This document shows positions 23,067 to 31,048 of a DNA stretch of 64,000 nt, piece after piece. Where the stretch lies: NCBI RefSeq assembly GCF_010731775.1, contig NZ_AP022590.1, forward strand, positions 3,348,001 through 3,412,000, in the 5' to 3' direction. This stretch comes from Mycobacterium mantenii. Its GTDB lineage: Bacteria > Actinomycetota > Actinomycetes > Mycobacteriales > Mycobacteriaceae. A model generated the notes under the pieces. That model worked only from the letters and a program-made list of their open reading frames with translations. It searched no databases and was not told where the DNA came from. Made by a program: the position numbers and the translations under genes. Each line of letters opens with the position of its first letter. Within the stretch, counting starts at the first letter, position 1.

Positions 23067-23200
23067 GGTGATCCAGTCGTGCGGACGATCACCGGCGTGT
23101 CAGGCTCGGAGCTGACGCTCCTAGAGTTCAGCGGCGTGCGGCGAAAACCCTTCCGGGACCAGCTGAGATTCTCAGCAGCTACGACACTACACCGGTTGGG
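23062..23200. repeat. Duplicated upstream region, copy A
   Basis: About 140 bp between the STAS start and the GAF-ANTAR gene align, with gaps, with 31045-31180. Shared blocks include the start-codon region GGTCATGGTGA, ATCACCGGCGTGT, a hairpin GGAGC-TGAC-GCTCC (23108-23121), the palindrome GCTGAGATTCTCAGC (23162-23176) and GAC(A/G)CTACACC. Confidence 0.7.
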
Positions 23201-23363
23201 GGTTACGCACAGCTGTCCGGCCCGCATGCCCAAAGCAGGAAGTGGCCGGCCAACGTCGCGATGGACCGGCCGGCCAACTTTCGCCGTAGGATGGAGTCAT
23301 CTCGCGGCGGCTGTGTACCGGGTATACGGCTGGTCGCCAGTGATGTCGGGCTCCAGCAGGATT

Positions 23364-24209
23364 ATGAAACAGGTACCGGCGATGGTGGAGTACACCAAGG
23401 ACACCGATGGGCCGCCGCTGGCGCCGCGGACATCGGAGCAGCTCAGTAGCGATGACGCCGATTTACAGGCGGCGATTAGCAATCTCGCGGGTTTGGTCGC
23501 CGGTCATCGGCGGTTGCCTGAGTTGCTGGCGGAGGTAGCGACATTCGCAGTCCGCGCGATACCGGGAGCCGACGGTGCTGGAGTTACGTTGCTGAATGTC
23601 GACCGGGTGGACGACATGGTCGCGGCGTTGGCGGCCAGCGCTCCCTTTGTTGCCGAGATTGACGAAATTCAGTACGTCACCCTCAACGAGGGGCCCTGCA
23701 TCACCGCGGCGCTCGAACGTCGCACGGTGCGCTCAGGGTCGTTGGGTGGGGAGAGGATGTGGCCGCGCTTCGGTCCACGCGTAGGCAGGTTGGGGGTGCA
23801 CAGTGCACTGTCGCTACCGCTGTTGCTGCCTGATCGGGTGGTCGGGGCGATCAACGTATATGCCTACGCCAAAGACGTTTTCGATGAGCATGCCGCCGAA
23901 TTCGGGGAGTTGTTCGCCAAACCAGCTGCTGTCGCTGTATACAACGCGCAGATCCTCGCGGACGCGCTTGCTCTAACTGTCCAGTTGCAGACGGCGTTGT
24001 CCACCCGCCCGGTGATCGATCAAGCGATTGGCCTCATCCGCGGACGTACCGGGCGCAGCGCCGAGGACGCGTTCACCCAGCTGCGGGCGATGAGCCAATC
24101 TGAGCACCGCAAGTTGGCTGATGTGGCGCAACACCTGGTCGATGAAGCGGTGCGCCGCGCCCGCGCCCGCGCCCGACCTGAGCCGGACAGCCCAGCCGGC
24201 GTACCGTAA
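23364..24209 (+). CDS. GAF-ANTAR RNA-binding regulator
   Basis: About 281 residues. A GAF sensor domain (about 45-190, with IPGADGAGVTLLNVD and PLLLPDRVVGAINVYA) is followed by an ANTAR domain (about 205-260, STRPVIDQAIGLIRGRTGRSAEDAFTQL). ANTAR proteins bind paired RNA hexaloops and prevent termination, or act on stress transcripts. Possible starts are ATGs at 23343, 23364 and 23382; 23364 follows AGCAGG. The upstream stretch GTACCGGGTATACGG could contain a SigF-type GGGTAT -10 element, but no certain -35 was found. A second ANTAR gene follows after 131 bp. Confidence 0.85.
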   Translation: MKQVPAMVEYTKDTDGPPLAPRTSEQLSSDDADLQAAISNLAGLVAGHRRLPELLAEVATFAVRAIPGADGAGVTLLNVDRVDDMVAALAASAPFVAEIDEIQYVTLNEGPCITAALERRTVRSGSLGGERMWPRFGPRVGRLGVHSALSLPLLLPDRVVGAINVYAYAKDVFDEHAAEFGELFAKPAAVAVYNAQILADALALTVQLQTALSTRPVIDQAIGLIRGRTGRSAEDAFTQLRAMSQSEHRKLADVAQHLVDEAVRRARARARPEPDSPAGVP

Positions 24210-24916: not shown

Positions 24917-25115
24917 CCGCTCATTGGGTGTAGCCGTTGAGAGGTTGGGAACCCAGCAAGTCCGTGATGAAGTCAGCCGTCCGCCGCTGATCTCGCAGAG
25001 CAGCCGCTCACGCCGGACACACCGGTGACAACCGTCCGTCGGGATCACCTTGAGCGCTTTAGACACCCGTGAAACATCGAATGCCCCCCTTGTTGGGCGA
25101 GGTCGTTGCGGCTCC

Positions 25116-26128
25116 ATGAGTTTCGGCATCCTGAGTACGTATCCACCGACACCGTGCGGGTCGGCGACGTTCAGTGCAGCCTTGTCGGAAGGGTTGTGCG
25201 CGAATGGTTCTGACGTCGGCGTCGTGCGAATTGCCGACGGGTCGTCATCCCCTGATGCTCGGGTGATCGGAGAGCTGTCAACGGTTCCGCGACATCCGTG
25301 GCAGCAGCCTCCGAATTGCTGAACGAGAGCGATATCGCGATCGTGCAGCATGAGTACGGCATCTACGGCGGTGTCGACGGAGACGAGGTGGTGGACATCA
25401 TCGGGGGGCTGCGCATCCCGTCGATCGTGGTCGCCCACACGGTCCTCAAGACCCGACCCCGCATCAGCGTTTTGTGCTTGAGGCGATCGCGGCGACAGCG
25501 GCTCGGGTGGTTGTTATGTCGGAGGCGGCCAGGCAACGCCTGTGCCTCGGCTTCAACGTCGGAAATGCGTTCGGGCAGAACGACTCTGTTGACCTGGGGC
25601 CTGCTGGGGCCGGGGAAGGGCATCGAGCGGGTCATCGAGGCGATGGGATCGCTGCGCGAGCTCCATGGCCGACCGCGTTACCTGGTTGCCGGCCGCACGC
25701 ACCCAAAGGTTTGGCCGTCGACGGTGAAGCATACCGCGAGGCCCCGTGCCGAACAGGCGCGGCGCACCGGCGTAGCGGACTCGGTGTGCTTCGACGCCCA
25801 CTACCGCAACGTGTCGTCGCTGACTGCGCTGGTTCGGTCCTCGGCCTTGGTCTCCTGCCCTACGACTCCACGGATCAGGTCACTTCCGGTGTTCTGGTCG
25901 ACGCAATCGCAGCGGGCGGCCGGTCGTCGCCACCGCGCACACGCCGAGGAGACGATTTCCGCATTCCGCAGCATCGCCGAACGGACGTATGCCGTCGAGT
26001 TCGCCCACCGTACAACACTTTCCGAGCGCATCTTGTGGCCCTCGATGGGCGCAGAGCAGGGCGGCATGGAGGATGCACGCTTCGTTCGTTTCATCGACGA
26101 CGACGGATCTGTCCCCCGAACTCCTTAG
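25116..26128 (+). pseudogene. GT4-type glycosyltransferase, multiply frameshifted
   Basis: A complete glycosyltransferase can be traced only by moving between frames: MSFGILSTYPPTPCGSATF from 25116, then VQHEYGIYGGVDGDEVVDII in a second frame, EAIAATAARVVVMSEAARQR in a third (about 25474), TWGLLGPGKGIERVIEAMGS back in the second, GLAVDGEAYREA in the third, RAEQARRTGVADSV in the second and YDSTDQVTSGVLVDAIAAG in the third. At least five indels are needed. The end is also degraded. It is clearly nonfunctional and shows decay in this block. Confidence 0.85.
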
Positions 26129-26186
26129 AGTTCTGAGCCGCTGAGGCCCAAGATATTTCAAAGGACACCTGCACGCCTACGCAGTG

Positions 26187-26226
26187 TGTCAACGCTGTTG
26201 ACATATGGCGGTGAAGGGCGTCTAAT
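26187..26226 (+). promoter_or_regulatory. Promoter with TGTCAAC-N3-GTTGACA operator
   Basis: TGTCAAC-GCT-GTTGACA (26187-26203) is a 17-bp palindrome. Its right arm contains a perfect -35 box TTGACA (26198-26203); 17 bp further lies TCTAAT (26221-26226), one base from the consensus -10. It reads towards the hibernation-factor-like gene with a leader of about 160 nt. The same palindrome lies at 28821, next to a TetR gene. Confidence 0.78.
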
Positions 26227-26394
26227 TGAGACATACCGGAAACCAGCTATCGCCGGAGCTCATCTGGAGTTCGCCGAAGGATCAACGTGTTTCCGTCTGT
26301 TCCCGGTAAATCGGTTCGAACATCGCACGACCACGACATGCGTCGAGAAAGACGCCAGCGCCTGCGCGTAGCCCGCAGTCTAAGGAGAACGACC

Positions 26395-26772
26395 ATGATG
26401 AAACCGGACAACGAACAACGAGATGCGTTCGGCGAGCACGTGCTTCACGTCGGTGCGGGCTTCAAAGAAAAGGAGCGTCAGCACGTACTGGAGACGTTGT
26501 CGACGCTCGGTCCGCACCTGCTGGGACGATGGAATCCGCGGGACATCGATGTGGAAGTCTCGTTGCAGGATCGTGGCGGCAACGAGCAGCGCGTCACTTT
26601 GCGCACGAGCCTGCCCGGCCGTGCGCCACTGGTGGCAGTCGCTGAGAACCCGGACATCACCCGCGCTATCTGCGAAGCAAAGCGTGAGCTGATCCGGCAA
26701 CTTGAACACCAGAAGTCAGCGCGCGACCCCATGAGTAGCCGCCGGCGCAACAGCGCGACGATCCGCCACTAG
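26395..26772 (+). CDS. HPF/RaiA-like ribosome-associated stress protein
   Basis: 125 residues from an ATG with a strong AAGGAGAA site 7 bp upstream. The chain HVLHVGAGFKEKERQHVLETL, then DIDVEVSLQDRGGNEQRVTLRT and AICEAKRELIRQLEHQK, fits the beta-alpha-beta-beta-beta-alpha fold of the S30AE/HPF N-terminal domain, without the long C-terminal dimer domain. Short forms stabilise idle ribosomes under stress. It is driven by the operator-bearing promoter at 26187-26226 and so is predicted to be under the TetR regulator encoded 2 kb downstream. Family assignment is by pattern only. Confidence 0.72.
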   Translation: MMKPDNEQRDAFGEHVLHVGAGFKEKERQHVLETLSTLGPHLLGRWNPRDIDVEVSLQDRGGNEQRVTLRTSLPGRAPLVAVAENPDITRAICEAKRELIRQLEHQKSARDPMSSRRRNSATIRH

Positions 26773-26794
26773 GGTCACCTCCACGCCGTTCTCG

Positions 26795-26830
26795 ATCGCC
26801 CTATTTTTGTAAATCGCCCTATTTTCGTAA
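26795..26830. repeat. 18-bp tandem duplication
   Basis: ATCGCCCTATTTTTGTAA (26795-26812) is followed directly by ATCGCCCTATTTTCGTAA (26813-26830), differing at one base. It is A/T rich and lies in the gap after the hibernation-like gene. Confidence 0.8.
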
Positions 26831-26881
26831 GAAGCGCGACAACCAGCAGCTCGCTTTCGCGGGCAAGACAAAGGGACGGTC

Positions 26882-27145
26882 ATGACGCACATCATCGAAG
26901 CGCAAGTTGTCGACAACCATGCCGCCATAGGCAGATTGACGCCACCGGCTCCGGACAGGCCGTACTTGACGGTCCACGAAGTACTCCGCGCGGGTATACG
27001 CCGCGCCACCGGACACAGAGAAATGGCCGCGGCCCAGTCGACATGGGATTCCGAAGGCGGGGCAAACCACGCGCGAGGGCGTAAGCGACGGGAAGTCTGT
27101 GCGCGGCCCCTGGCTGCCCTCATCCCCGGTTCACGCAGCGGCTGA
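26882..27145 (+). CDS. Hypothetical protein, 87 residues
   Basis: An ATG with AAGGGACGG upstream opens a frame of 87 codons. The first 55 residues (VDNHAAIGRLTPPAPDRPYL and TVHEVLRAGIRRATGHREM) look like ordinary protein; the remainder is Arg-rich and less convincing. No family was recognised. Base composition is similar to its neighbours. It could be a decayed or chance frame. Confidence 0.35.
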   Translation: MTHIIEAQVVDNHAAIGRLTPPAPDRPYLTVHEVLRAGIRRATGHREMAAAQSTWDSEGGANHARGRKRREVCARPLAALIPGSRSG

Positions 27146-27309
27146 GACCTGGCGCACGGTGTGCGCGGTCTCCACTGAACCCTCACCCCCACGCGGCGCC
27201 TGGTAGACACAATCAGGGGCGCCCGCGCCGCGATGCGGTGCTCAGGGCACCGCCGGCTCCCGAATTTAATTCGAGGGCCCCTCGAACTTCCGGTTCACCT
27301 CAGGTGCGG

Positions 27310-27618
27310 GGAGTAGCTGCGTCAGTGACGTGGCGTCAGTGTGACGTGCTTGCGCCTGGTGTTGTAGGGCGGCCGAGTGTGGTGCCATGGCTTCGGCCTC
27401 GGCTTGCGCAGCGCGGGCCTTGGCTGCCGTCTCGTCGGCAAGCGCTTCGCGTTACGCGACCTCGTGGGACTGTTCGACGGCTTCGTCGCGGATGTCGCCG
27501 GCTTGGACGCGGAGGTGTTTCGGTGCGTTTCCCGCGCGCCATGCGCGCGGTTGCGGCGACGAACAGAGCTGCCGCGACAATGACGACGATGATCCCAACG
27601 ATACTGCCTGGTAGTCAT
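27310..27618 (-). pseudogene. Membrane-anchored coiled-coil protein, frameshifted
   Basis: Reading leftwards from ATG at 27618, a shift after three codons restores GSIVGIIVVIVAAALFVAAT, a transmembrane helix. A second shift near 27520 gives LRVQAGDIRDEAVEQSHEVA, then an in-frame TAA, then REALADETAAKARAAQAEAE, a long alanine/glutamate helix. This is the layout of small stress-associated mycobacterial proteins (one helix in the membrane plus a coiled coil). Two frameshifts and one stop make it a pseudogene. It would have been the last gene of the operon that begins at 28766. Confidence 0.68.
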
Positions 27619-27824
27619 GTCGGCTCTTTGATTTGGGTCGGGCGGCCGGCGAAACTTGGAATCGCTCGAATTGAGCTGTGGGAGTTATGGACTGGGTCGG
27701 GGCACGTGCGCGCCCGTCACCTTGGGGATTGGCACCGCATGACGCGGCTCTGCTTGCGAGTCACCCGCCGGACGGCGACGAGAAGTTGTCGGGGCCGACA
27801 CGGTGGGTTACACGCCTGGCCGGT

Positions 27825-28004
27825 TTAGTAGTAGTGACGGCGGCCGCCGACGGCGTGTCCCATCCGTCCCATCAGCATCAGTATCAGACCGACGACGAGG
27901 AGGATGACCCCGAGGACCAAAACAACGTGGGCGAAGGCGAAGGTAGGGACGAGGCTAGGGAGCAGGAGTCCGAGGACGATAAGGATGATTCCGAGAATGA
28001 TCAT
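27825..28004 (-). CDS. DUF6131 small membrane protein
   Basis: 59 residues, almost all membrane: MIILGIILIVLGLLLPS, then HVVLVLGVILLVVGLILMLM, ending with the family tail AVGGRRHYY. The family is common in mycobacteria beside CsbD and other stress genes and has no known function. It lies 50 bp behind the CsbD-like gene on the same strand, so it is probably in one operon. Confidence 0.82.
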   Translation of the reverse strand: MIILGIILIVLGLLLPSLVPTFAFAHVVLVLGVILLVVGLILMLMGRMGHAVGGRRHYY

Positions 28005-28054
28005 AACGTTTGCCTAGTTTCTGTGTAGATGCCTGGGGAGGAGGATTGCCGGGG

Positions 28055-28228
28055 TCAGTGTTTGAAGGCGTCTTTGACCTTCGCCCCCGCTTGTTTGGTG
28101 TTGCCCTTGAACTGATCGACGCGTCCCTCGGTGCGCAGACGCGTGTTGCCAATGGCGCGGCCGTAGATCTTCTTGGTGGCGCCCTTGGCCTCTTCGAGTT
28201 TGTGGGCGACCTTTTTACTTATGCTCAC
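28055..28228 (-). CDS. CsbD-family small stress protein
   Basis: 57 residues from GTG at 28228, with AGGAAAG upstream. The sequence shows the CsbD pattern: KLEEAKGATKKIYGRAIGN, then EGRVDQFKGNTKQAGAKVKD. CsbD proteins are small, highly charged and strongly induced by general stress sigma factors; their molecular role is unclear. It is the middle gene of a small minus-strand operon between a two-helix membrane protein and DUF6131. Confidence 0.85.
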   Translation of the reverse strand: MSISKKVAHKLEEAKGATKKIYGRAIGNTRLRTEGRVDQFKGNTKQAGAKVKDAFKH

Positions 28229-28316
28229 TGCTTCTTTCCTATGTTCGTTGCAAATTTTTTCTTTTCAGGGATCGCCGCTCGCGACTGAGAACTCCCCAAA
28301 TGAACCGTGTCGGCGC

Positions 28317-28766
28317 CTAGCGGCGTCCGCCGCCCCGCGGTGCTGTCGGTTGCCGACCCCACGACCGGCGCCCGAGGAGGGATCCCCTCTTCCTCCTCGG
28401 GCGGGTGGTGGACAATTGGGAGTTCGCCATTGACCCGGTATCCGTGCCGACGGGCTGGTTTTGGAATTCGCGGTCTCGGTTCACAAACTCGACTTCGCGC
28501 TGCGATCGTTCGAGCTCGCGGCGGGCGTCGCGCCCGCGCGCGGCAGTACGCCGCGCACCGGCGAGCAACACGCTCATACCCAGCATCGCCAGCGCGCCGA
28601 TCACGATCCCGAAGAGAAAAAGGGTGCCGGTCGATCCGGTGACGTGGTAGCCCAACACCGAGAAGTTCTCGCTCAACGGGTGAGCTGCCCCCGCGTTGTT
28701 CAGCACGCCCAGGAACCCGACGACCACGGCGAAGAATAGAACAGCTAATCCAACGATGACAATCAT
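28317..28766 (-). CDS. Two-helix membrane protein (LapA-like)
   Basis: 149 residues from ATG at 28766 with GGAG 8 bp upstream. Transmembrane helices lie at about 2-24 (IVIVGLAVLFFAVVVGFLGVL) and 48-72 (TLFLFGIVIGALAMLGMSVLLA). A basic cytosolic tail follows (RRELERSQREVEFVNRDRE). The spacing is that of LapA-domain/DUF1049-type proteins. It is the first gene of the operon with CsbD and DUF6131, and starts about 32 bp after the -10 of the promoter at 28798-28826. Function unknown; envelope stress is inferred. Confidence 0.72.
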   Translation of the reverse strand: MIVIVGLAVLFFAVVVGFLGVLNNAGAAHPLSENFSVLGYHVTGSTGTLFLFGIVIGALAMLGMSVLLAGARRTAARGRDARRELERSQREVEFVNRDREFQNQPVGTDTGSMANSQLSTTRPRRKRGSLLGRRSWGRQPTAPRGGGRR

Positions 28767-28797
28767 GTCGGGTCTCCAATTGCAGTGCTTGATATCC

Positions 28798-28837
28798 ATT
28801 ACACACTGCAGGTAGGGTTATGTCAACAATGTTGACC
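28798..28837 (-). promoter_or_regulatory. Promoter with second TGTCAAC-N3-GTTGAC operator
   Basis: TGTCAAC-AAT-GTTGAC (28821-28836) is a palindrome of the same sequence as that at 26187. On the minus strand it contains -35 TTGACA (28826-28821), and 17 bp on is TGTAAT (28803-28798), one base from the consensus -10. It drives the membrane/CsbD/DUF6131 operon and also lies about 90 bp before the divergent TetR gene. Confidence 0.8.
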
Positions 28838-28926
28838 AACGGTGTAGGTTAACTTCGTTGAATATGTTGTTGAATTTGGAATCGGTGCCCGCTTCGATGA
28901 CGAACCAGAAGGGAAGTGCTCAGGCA

Positions 28927-29688
28927 ATGACGAGACAGTCGGCCGGGCCCAACGCCGGCGCTGACGACGAGGGCCCGCCCGCCGCCGGCAGAAACAATGG
29001 TCAGCTCAACCGGTCGATGATCCTGCAGACCGCGCTGCGCATCGTGGACCGCGACGGTGTGGACGGCCTGTCAATGCGCCGCCTCAGCGAAGCGGTGGGC
29101 CGAGATCCGGTGATGCTCTACCGGCACATGCCCAACAAAGCCGCAGTGCTTGACGGAGTCGCGGAGATGGTGCTCGCACAGCTATCCGTCGACAGTACGG
29201 ATCCGGACTGGGGGGGCCAACTGCGTACCGTCGCGCACAACTTCCGCCAGTTGGCCCTGAAGCACCCCAACGTGGTGCCGCTGTTGGTCACGCGACCCTT
29301 GGCCACCCCGCTCGGCCAGCGGCCGCCAGGAATGCTGCGGCCGCTAGAGGACGTCCTCGCACTGCTCATATCCGCCGGCTTCACCGCCGAGGATGCCCTG
29401 CACATCTACAGAGTGCTGTTCGGCTACCTGTACGGCCACATCCTCAATGAATTGCAGGAGGTTATCGAGCGACCCGAGGAAACCGACCATGTACTACGGC
29501 TCGGTCTTCACCGGCTCGCGATCACCGAATTCCCTCAACTGCGTGCCCTGGCACCCGCCCTGGCCTCCTATGATGGCGCCGCCGAGCTGGACCGCTTCCT
29601 CAATCTGCTGCTCCCCGGCATGACCGCGACGCTCACCGGCGGCGACGGACAACCCCCAACCGCCGAAGATACATCCGCCGCTGGATAA
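28927..29688 (+). CDS. TetR regulator with TetR-C domain
   Basis: About 253 residues. The HTH is near residues 35-75 (GLSMRRLSEAVGRDPVMLYRHMPNKAAVLDG). A TetR-C-type ligand domain follows (LKHPNVVPLLVTRPLAT, and FGYLYGHILNELQ). It is divergent from the small membrane/CsbD operon, and the palindrome at 28821-28836 lies between them. By position it should bind that site, the copy at 26187 and its own promoter. The start could be ATG at 28897 or a TTG at 28858; 28927 is preferred for the AGAAGGGAAG before it. Confidence 0.82.
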   Translation: MTRQSAGPNAGADDEGPPAAGRNNGQLNRSMILQTALRIVDRDGVDGLSMRRLSEAVGRDPVMLYRHMPNKAAVLDGVAEMVLAQLSVDSTDPDWGGQLRTVAHNFRQLALKHPNVVPLLVTRPLATPLGQRPPGMLRPLEDVLALLISAGFTAEDALHIYRVLFGYLYGHILNELQEVIERPEETDHVLRLGLHRLAITEFPQLRALAPALASYDGAAELDRFLNLLLPGMTATLTGGDGQPPTAEDTSAAG

Positions 29689-29724: not shown

Positions 29725-30825
29725 TTACGGTAGCGGCGCTGACCAGCGCAGCACGGTGCCTCCGCCGGGAGCATCCGCGATCGTGAACGCTCCGCCGGCC
29801 TGCAGCGCTCGGTGATGCAAGCTGGTCAAGCCACTGCCGGTGATGACGCCGGGAACGCCTCGACCGTTGTCGATCACTTCGATGCACACGTCGTCCTCGA
29901 CCTTGACGGTCACCGCAAGTCTGGTCGCGGCGGCATGCCGGACAACGTTGCTGACCGCTTCGCGCACAACGGCTTCGGCGTGATCGGCGAGTGCAGCATC
30001 GACAGCCGACAAGGGGCCTACGAATTGAACCGTGGTCTCCAGTTCGGAACCGCAGAAGCGCGCGACTGCCTCGTCGAGCCGTTCTCGCAGCCGAGTGATG
30101 CCCAGCGGTGCAACGTGCAGGTCGAAAATTGCGGCGCGAATCTCCTGAATGACGACTTGAAGATCATCGATGCTGCCGGACAGTCTCTGCTGCACCTCAG
30201 TTGACCGCGCCAGCGGAATGGTTCCCTGCAGAGCCAATCCGATCCCGAAGATCCGCTGGATCACCTGGTGGCCCAGGTCGCGGGCGATCCTGTCGCGGTC
30301 AGCGAGAATGTCGAGTTCGCGCATCCGGCGCTGTGTGGACCCCAGCTGCCAGGCGAGCGCCGCCTGGTCGGTGAATGCGGCCATCATGTCGAGCTGCTCG
30401 TCGCCGAAAGTCCGGGCGCCGTCACGCCGCACCGCGACCAACACCCCCGCCACGGTATCGGTGGTGCGCAGCGGAAGCACCAGCGCCGGGCCGGCACGTT
30501 GGACGCCGTCGATGGCGACGTCGAAGTTGTTCAGTCGTCGGGGGGTCCCCTCCACGAAGGTCCGCCCGATCGAGGTACCTGCGATGGGGATGGCATGAGC
30601 CGGCGTCGAGGTAATTGCAGCCCTGGCGATTTCCACGACCATCAGATCGGCCACGTCCGACGTCGGTATGTCGTGGTTGATTGCGACAGCGACCAATGTG
30701 ATTTCTGCGCCCGTCAGCCTGAGAGCTTGCTGGGCGATGGGCCGATAGACTGTTGCGGGCATCGGGGCCGCAGAGTAGTCAGGTTGCGACGTCACGCATC
30801 GCTTCGCCGCTTCAACAGCCGACAT
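29725..30825 (-). CDS. GAF-domain histidine kinase (DosS/DosT-like), changed phosphoacceptor box
   Basis: About 366 residues. One GAF domain (about 25-175) is followed by a HisKA_3 dimerisation helix and an HATPase_c domain. The N box is EAVSNVVRHAA and the G1 box is DNGRGVPG. In this family the helix normally reads ARDLHDxVIQR, with His phosphorylated. Here it reads ARDLGHQVIQR, so the His has become Gly and the following Asp is His. It may phosphorylate the shifted His or may not autophosphorylate. No response regulator is adjacent. Only one GAF domain is present, fewer than in DosS. ATG at 30825 is taken as start, overlapping a small upstream frame by 14 bp. Confidence 0.8.
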   Translation of the reverse strand: MSAVEAAKRCVTSQPDYSAAPMPATVYRPIAQQALRLTGAEITLVAVAINHDIPTSDVADLMVVEIARAAITSTPAHAIPIAGTSIGRTFVEGTPRRLNNFDVAIDGVQRAGPALVLPLRTTDTVAGVLVAVRRDGARTFGDEQLDMMAAFTDQAALAWQLGSTQRRMRELDILADRDRIARDLGHQVIQRIFGIGLALQGTIPLARSTEVQQRLSGSIDDLQVVIQEIRAAIFDLHVAPLGITRLRERLDEAVARFCGSELETTVQFVGPLSAVDAALADHAEAVVREAVSNVVRHAAATRLAVTVKVEDDVCIEVIDNGRGVPGVITGSGLTSLHHRALQAGGAFTIADAPGGGTVLRWSAPLP

Positions 30826-31048
30826 GGTCATTCCGATCAATCGGAACGCTGACGGCAACGATCGGCGCGTTCGCGATGATCACGAGGCTTGTCACGCTCG
30901 GCGCGCCGACCGTATTCGCACCCGTCGGTGCCGCAGTGCCGGTGAAGGGCGGCGCTGAGAGCTGCCTGCGAACCATTACTGGGTTCGGTCCCGGCAGGTC
31001 TACCCAGGAAGCGGTGGGGTTGGCGGAGTAAGCAAGTGAAGCGGTCAT
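30812..31048 (-). CDS. Possible STAS remnant or short leader protein
   Basis: A 78-residue frame begins at an ATG in the same relation to the duplicated upstream region as the STAS gene at 23066. Its sequence is not clearly STAS, although APIVAVSVPIDRND loosely recalls the strand AVVSVHGEIDQTN of the other copy. It ends 14 bp inside the kinase gene. It could be a decayed copy of the STAS gene or a small coupled protein. Confidence 0.3.
   Translation of the reverse strand: MTASLAYSANPTASWVDLPGPNPVMVRRQLSAPPFTGTAAPTGANTVGAPSVTSLVIIANAPIVAVSVPIDRNDHVGC

Follow-up and report, generated by a model that had tools for sequence, protein, structure and literature searches.

The present study focused on a putative TetR-family repressor and its two predicted operators in Mycobacterium mantenii, within a window of 64,000 nucleotides (the whole stretch of DNA analysed, positions 3,348,001 to 3,412,000 of contig NZ_AP022590.1). 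It is likely that this protein represses two promoters, one for a short HPF/RaiA-like gene and the other for a divergent operon specifying a small membrane protein, a CsbD-like protein and a DUF6131 protein, by way of palindromes that lie over their -35 boxes. At both sites the gene-proximal arm of the palindrome is itself the TTGACA -35 box, and the initial annotation, which had described the same palindrome in both places, each with a TTGACA and a -10 box 17 bp away, is borne out by the sequence (Table 1). Two near-consensus promoters whose -35 boxes are covered by a palindrome, together with a divergent TetR gene, amount to a repressor layout. In the proposed mechanism, a TetR dimer would bind the 17-bp element TGTCAAC-N3-GTTGACA at both operators and bar RNA polymerase from the sigma-70-type, presumably SigA-dependent, promoters of the operon and the HPF gene, and it would probably damp its own gene as well. 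The protein would be freed from DNA by a ligand, for which a signal of lipid nature or of envelope stress is plausible, after which ribosome hibernation and small envelope proteins would be switched on together; a lipid is plausible, to that extent and no further, because desaturase and lipid-synthase genes are present in relatives. Judging by position, the start of transcription would fall some 25 nt ahead of the membrane-protein methionine common to relatives for the operon, and some 160 nt ahead of the ATG for HPF.

The palindrome beside the regulator gene is conserved across a broad range of relatives. A genus survey of 297 genomes gave a TetR match at 1e-20 in 103, and 46 genomes with matches of at least 290 bits were taken to carry orthologues, with fragments in two more (G006 and G038); the named loci include those of M. 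scrofulaceum (94% identity), M. bohemicum, M. colombiense, Mycolicibacterium, Nocardia and Arthrobacter. The pattern TGTCWACNNNGTWGACA was sought in the 400 bp preceding tetR, with residue 31 as anchor and identical upstream ends dropped, and was found at up to two mismatches in 50 of 58 mycobacterial loci and at up to three in 54, compared with none and two for the reversed pattern in the same regions, and none and 2.3% in block shuffles (n = 1160). Among 35 actinobacterial loci from outside the mycobacteria, the joint pattern matched 21 at two mismatches or fewer and 34 at three or fewer (reversed pattern, 0 and 2), the orthologues there having a related site, GTCTAC-N3-GTAGAC, which is palindromic and lacks TTGACA. 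A conserved palindrome between a regulator and its divergent target is what would be expected of the local operator of a TetR-type repressor, and this is the arrangement found here. Since the right arm doubles as a -35 box, it is the left arm that provides independent evidence for an operator. Of 47 distinct regions upstream of the membrane-protein gene, 36 have a promoter of the form TTGACN-N16-18-TNTANT; genomes without the TetR contribute six of these regions, one of which has it.

One indication that this TetR lineage reads the palindrome comes from covariation between half-site and recognition helix, examined in 87 loci (121 minus 34 duplicates). The residue scored was the fifth position of the helix (GRDP-X), which aligns with P39 of TetR(B), a residue that contacts DNA. 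Mycobacterial TetRs with Val, Ala or Thr at this position have a site at up to two mismatches in 41 of 46 cases, of which 31 consist of two TTGAC halves, four have one TTGAC and no TAGAC, and six have one TAGAC-type half. Where mycobacterial TetRs carry Met, a site is found in 8 of 11, and all eight include at least one TAGAC-type half. Every non-mycobacterial row has Met (30/30), and the 18 with a site at up to two mismatches all have two TAGAC halves. The two forms differ by one base per half, TAGACA to TTGACA, which is the very change that creates the -35 box; its direction was probably from TAGAC to TTGAC, because the TAGAC form is the more widely spread.

Sites also accompany likely targets that lie away from tetR. 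HPF orthologues were found in 42 of the 297 genomes; 19 of these lack the TetR and 23 have it, two of the latter as fragments only. A site at up to two mismatches is present in the 700 bp preceding HPF in 9 of the 23 genomes that have the TetR, whole or as a remnant (in G163, 437 bp from the gene), while the 19 genomes without the TetR have none even at three mismatches. The HPF promoters with a site retain TTGACA and a TCTAAT/TTTACT-like box in the orthologues. In two further genomes, G118 and G283, it is a WS/DGAT-HPF unit that has the site upstream (the WS/DGAT gene of G118 being identified by Pfam and NCBIfam, that of G283 by a nearly identical start). A single exact palindrome separates divergent WS/DGAT-like and HPF genes in G091, and in another locus (L063) a site precedes a fatty-acid desaturase gene. 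The membrane-protein gene occurs in 33 of the 46 TetR-carrying genomes and in 7 of the 251 others. At a distance from tetR, or on a different contig, the gene has a site at up to one mismatch in G118, G283 and G157, at two in G165 and at three in G223 (two by the joint pattern); the second copy in G241 has none. For the seven genomes with the membrane-protein gene and no TetR, none of the six checked has a site at up to two mismatches, and the seventh (G294) starts at a contig end. In one of these, G109, the membrane-protein promoter is kept and the left arm of the palindrome is not; in G006, which retains tetR fragments only, the palindrome has been lost from the stretch that aligns to the HPF site. 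The link between TetR and site, which the initial annotation had put forward as a conjecture, thus gains good support from conservation, from co-occurrence with HPF and from covariation with the recognition helix, all of it at the level of sequence comparison; the motif recurs in orthologous promoters, upstream of the TetR and divergent membrane-protein genes across Mycobacterium, at HPF, and at the distant membrane-protein genes of G118, G283 and G157. As a separate observation, in G283 and G118 (L193 and L194) a palindrome lies between membrane-protein/CsbD genes and a divergent SPFH/Band 7 gene, a possible further target.

The question of whether the motif is common by chance was also raised by the initial annotation, and it proves to be rare. 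Within the 6,185,541 bp genome (6.19 Mb) there is one exact copy, and three places match at up to one mismatch, compared with none for a control pattern. At up to two mismatches there are 16 places against eight for the control, so about half of such weak matches are due to chance; 13 places have two mismatches and, of the 12 with a locus (L004-L015), 11 are inside coding-like open frames and one (L010) is between frames. In the window, eight matches at up to three mismatches were seen against 1.52 expected from shuffles, and operators 1 and 2 are the only ones at one mismatch or fewer. Across the genome, the promoter pattern TTGACA-N14-GYG-TNTAMT has exactly two matches, the two window promoters, a count that lacks independence as the pattern was derived from these promoters and their orthologues. 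The window desaturase (31830) was rejected as a further target: between 22001 and 34500 there is no site at up to three mismatches beyond the two operators and matches at 23312 and 23597. An Rfam search of 25900-29100 gave no match at E<=1.

The third genomic copy at up to one mismatch (204680-204696; L002 1501-1517) was considered as a TetR target and rejected, as it is situated where a MarR gene begins, the divergent neighbour of that gene being ChaB/Rho_N-like (by Pfam of the G048 orthologue). In 29 of 30 loci, genomes without the TetR included, the motif TGTCAA-N5-TTGACA, at up to two mismatches, is no more than 22 bp away from the aligned MarR start, so that this palindrome outside the window is likely to be the MarR gene's own operator, one that is easily confused with the TetR site. 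With the third copy assigned to MarR, the supported regulon in this genome comprises two promoters. A look-alike of another kind was noticed in G252 (L186, C1:1718849-1718865), where the palindrome occurs in exact form at a different TetR-type gene with a divergent permease-like neighbour, and a second, weaker copy overlaps it.

Several observations weigh against a single repressor acting on both promoters. The rows compared are related by descent, and so the p-values for half-site type against residue within mycobacteria (Fisher p=7e-6) and for HPF sites against genomes without the TetR (p=0.002) are overstated. G091 pairs a Met-type TetR with a TTGAC-type site, and of the 23 HPF-carrying genomes that have the TetR, whole or as a remnant, 12 show nothing at up to two mismatches near HPF or its unit. 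Genome-wide, 93 places in the 46 TetR-carrying genomes compare with 58 in 46 genomes without it (controls, 21 and 12), only a modest excess, the figures being sums of forward columns and the second set having been hand-picked from genomes without an orthologue, some of them with distant TetR matches; among the unplaced copies inspected, several are in coding frames, at MarR genes or at another TetR. Similar palindromes go with other regulators, a MarR and, in G252, another TetR. In M. europaeum (L105) the HPF site is exact, with no more of tetR than its C-terminal part found alongside, and the HPF site is likewise exact in G038, with part of tetR only.

These points lend some substance to the alternative that the TetR governs its divergent operon only, and that the HPF site is read by a paralogous TetR2, a MarR or a further TetR. 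Near-identical palindromes do occur at a MarR gene and at another TetR, a TetR2 paralogue with hybrid sites is present in the same genome, and the M. europaeum site persists beside a partial tetR; yet HPF sites were confined to genomes with the TetR or its remnant, and both window sites have TTGAC-type halves, the kind that goes with Val-type TetRs, which together make a separate reader of the HPF site improbable. Some TetR-family proteins are activators, and the GAF-histidine-kinase and GAF/ANTAR genes in the same island could add a layer of control, but an operator covering the -35 box itself, at two promoters that are both near consensus, has the layout of a repressor, so that activation, or action with another factor in place of repression, is very unlikely. 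The least credible alternative is that no regulator reads the palindrome, which would then owe its existence only to chance and to strong -35 boxes of the form TTGACA: the right arm is indeed conserved partly because TTGACA is the -35 consensus, but conservation extends to the left arm, which is lost in the six checked genomes without the TetR (including G109, with its promoter intact), site type covaries with the regulator, and the non-mycobacterial sites are palindromic in the absence of TTGACA.

Repression of both promoters by the one TetR is accordingly the reading that we prefer, and the regulon is best read as a small, partly mobile one concerned with dormancy and the envelope. The source genome (G000) carries a paralogous module at 5577406-5578756 (L169), with TetR2 (63%), a membrane protein (67%) and degenerate hybrid sites; the CsbD-like start that follows the pair loses its frame after about nine codons and looks broken. 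Two replicons listed as plasmids also have versions of the module: on Rhodococcus opacus pCP54 (L275) a small membrane protein, CsbD and DUF6131 are beside the TetR orthologue, and on M. branderi pJCM12687 (L277) the orthologue is found with CsbD, DUF6131 and an acyl-CoA desaturase. No HPF match was found on plasmids. The plasmid location of the TetR/CsbD/DUF6131 module suggests movement between actinobacteria. A wider proposal, to which we would give slightly less than an even chance, is that this is a mobile actinobacterial switch independent of DosR, in which one TetR lineage controls hibernation, envelope proteins and, depending on the species, wax-ester/triacylglycerol synthesis and desaturation, and in which the fusion of operator and -35 box in mycobacteria was tracked by a change from Met to Val, Ala or Thr.

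A TetR repressor with its operator on a -35 box is of a known kind. TetR of Tn10 and ActR of Streptomyces coelicolor share family, fold and helix-turn-helix with the window protein, and they too have a palindromic operator beside a divergent target, with other operator sequences and other targets; ActR is about 26% identical over the aligned part, and in contrast to both systems no efflux gene is beside the window TetR in the part read. BioQ of Mycobacterium smegmatis (5xs9, 5yej; 25-26% identity) controls biotin genes from a different operator sequence. DesT-like TetR regulators control desaturases, and the present system resembles them in having a desaturase downstream of tetR in Nocardia and M. 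branderi loci and the site at a desaturase in L063. Ribosome hibernation in mycobacteria is best known as an output of hypoxia control. In output there is overlap with the DosR regulon in an HPF (RafH in that regulon), which here is short and of a single domain; that regulon also includes tgs1, overlapping with the wax-ester/triacylglycerol synthase of relatives. DosR, however, is a response regulator that activates at another box, whereas here a TetR-type protein would act at a palindrome over the -35 box. Neither the regulon content nor the covariation was met with among the titles and abstract openings searched. If correct, a ligand-released repressor over a short HPF, envelope proteins and, in relatives, storage-lipid genes would represent a separate route into non-growth, and a clear natural example in which operator and promoter element fuse as the specificity residue of the regulator changes in step. 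Many natural regulator-site pairs exist with which the covariation can be tested.

Table 1. Predicted regulatory elements and genes of the system, in window coordinates
Feature	Position	Strand	Description
Operator 1, TGTCAACGCTGTTGACA	26187..26203	.	Upstream of HPF; exact palindrome with N3 centre, 0 mismatches to TGTCAACNNNGTTGACA
Operator 2, TGTCAACAATGTTGACC	28821..28837	.	Between TetR and the membrane-protein operon; 1 mismatch to TGTCAACNNNGTTGACA
HPF promoter	26198..26226	+	-35 TTGACA 26198-26203, spacer 17 bp, -10 TCTAAT 26221-26226
Operon promoter	28798..28826	-	-35 TTGACA 28826-28821, spacer 17 bp, -10 TGTAAT 28803-28798
Short HPF/RaiA-like protein	26395..26772	+	125 amino acids, S30AE fold; from Pfam, model, Foldseek and NCBI name of orthologue
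DUF6131 small membrane protein	27825..28004	-	Pfam E=2.4e-35
CsbD-like protein	28055..28228	-	Pfam E=1.8e-13
Small membrane protein	28317..28766	-	Start at Met common to homologues; open reading frame extends to 28799
TetR-family regulator (TetR_C_1)	28927..29688	+	About 253 amino acids; start picked to agree with orthologues

The assignment of the HPF-like protein draws on several lines of evidence. Its score against Pfam S30AE (E=8.6e-5, 23.6 bits) is just below the gathering score of 23.7, a profile built from 28 orthologues reached RaiA and HPF chains at E values of 0.053 and 0.12 only, and a PDB search with the protein alone gave a single weak and unrelated match. The nine top Foldseek rows for its model (predicted local distance difference test, 67) are without exception entries for HPF, RaiA or protein Y, the best at E 3.5e-3 and none at or below 0.001, so the modelled protein appears to have an S30AE fold, and the NCBI name of the M. 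scrofulaceum orthologue places it in the HPF/RaiA family. The small membrane protein matches no Pfam family, and the first Met of its open reading frame would overlap the -10 box. The regulator itself scores well above the gathering score of TetR_C_1 (E=2.9e-13, 50.3 bits against 21) and above that of TetR_C_33 (30 bits against 26.8). TetR_N gives 23.2 bits against a gathering score of 24; several close orthologues carry PF00440, and the helix of the window protein aligns with TetR(B). Identification as the tetracycline repressor proper or as MftR2 is not supported, since the protein falls below the curated NCBIfam scores (NF010319, 65.4 against 265; NF038211, 61.8 against 285). Elsewhere in the window, the stretch 25050-26136 resembles a glycosyltransferase gene of a relative (L063), split over several frames, and may be a pseudogene, and the region is flanked by a GAF/ANTAR protein and a GAF-histidine kinase (23079-24209 and 29725-30858).

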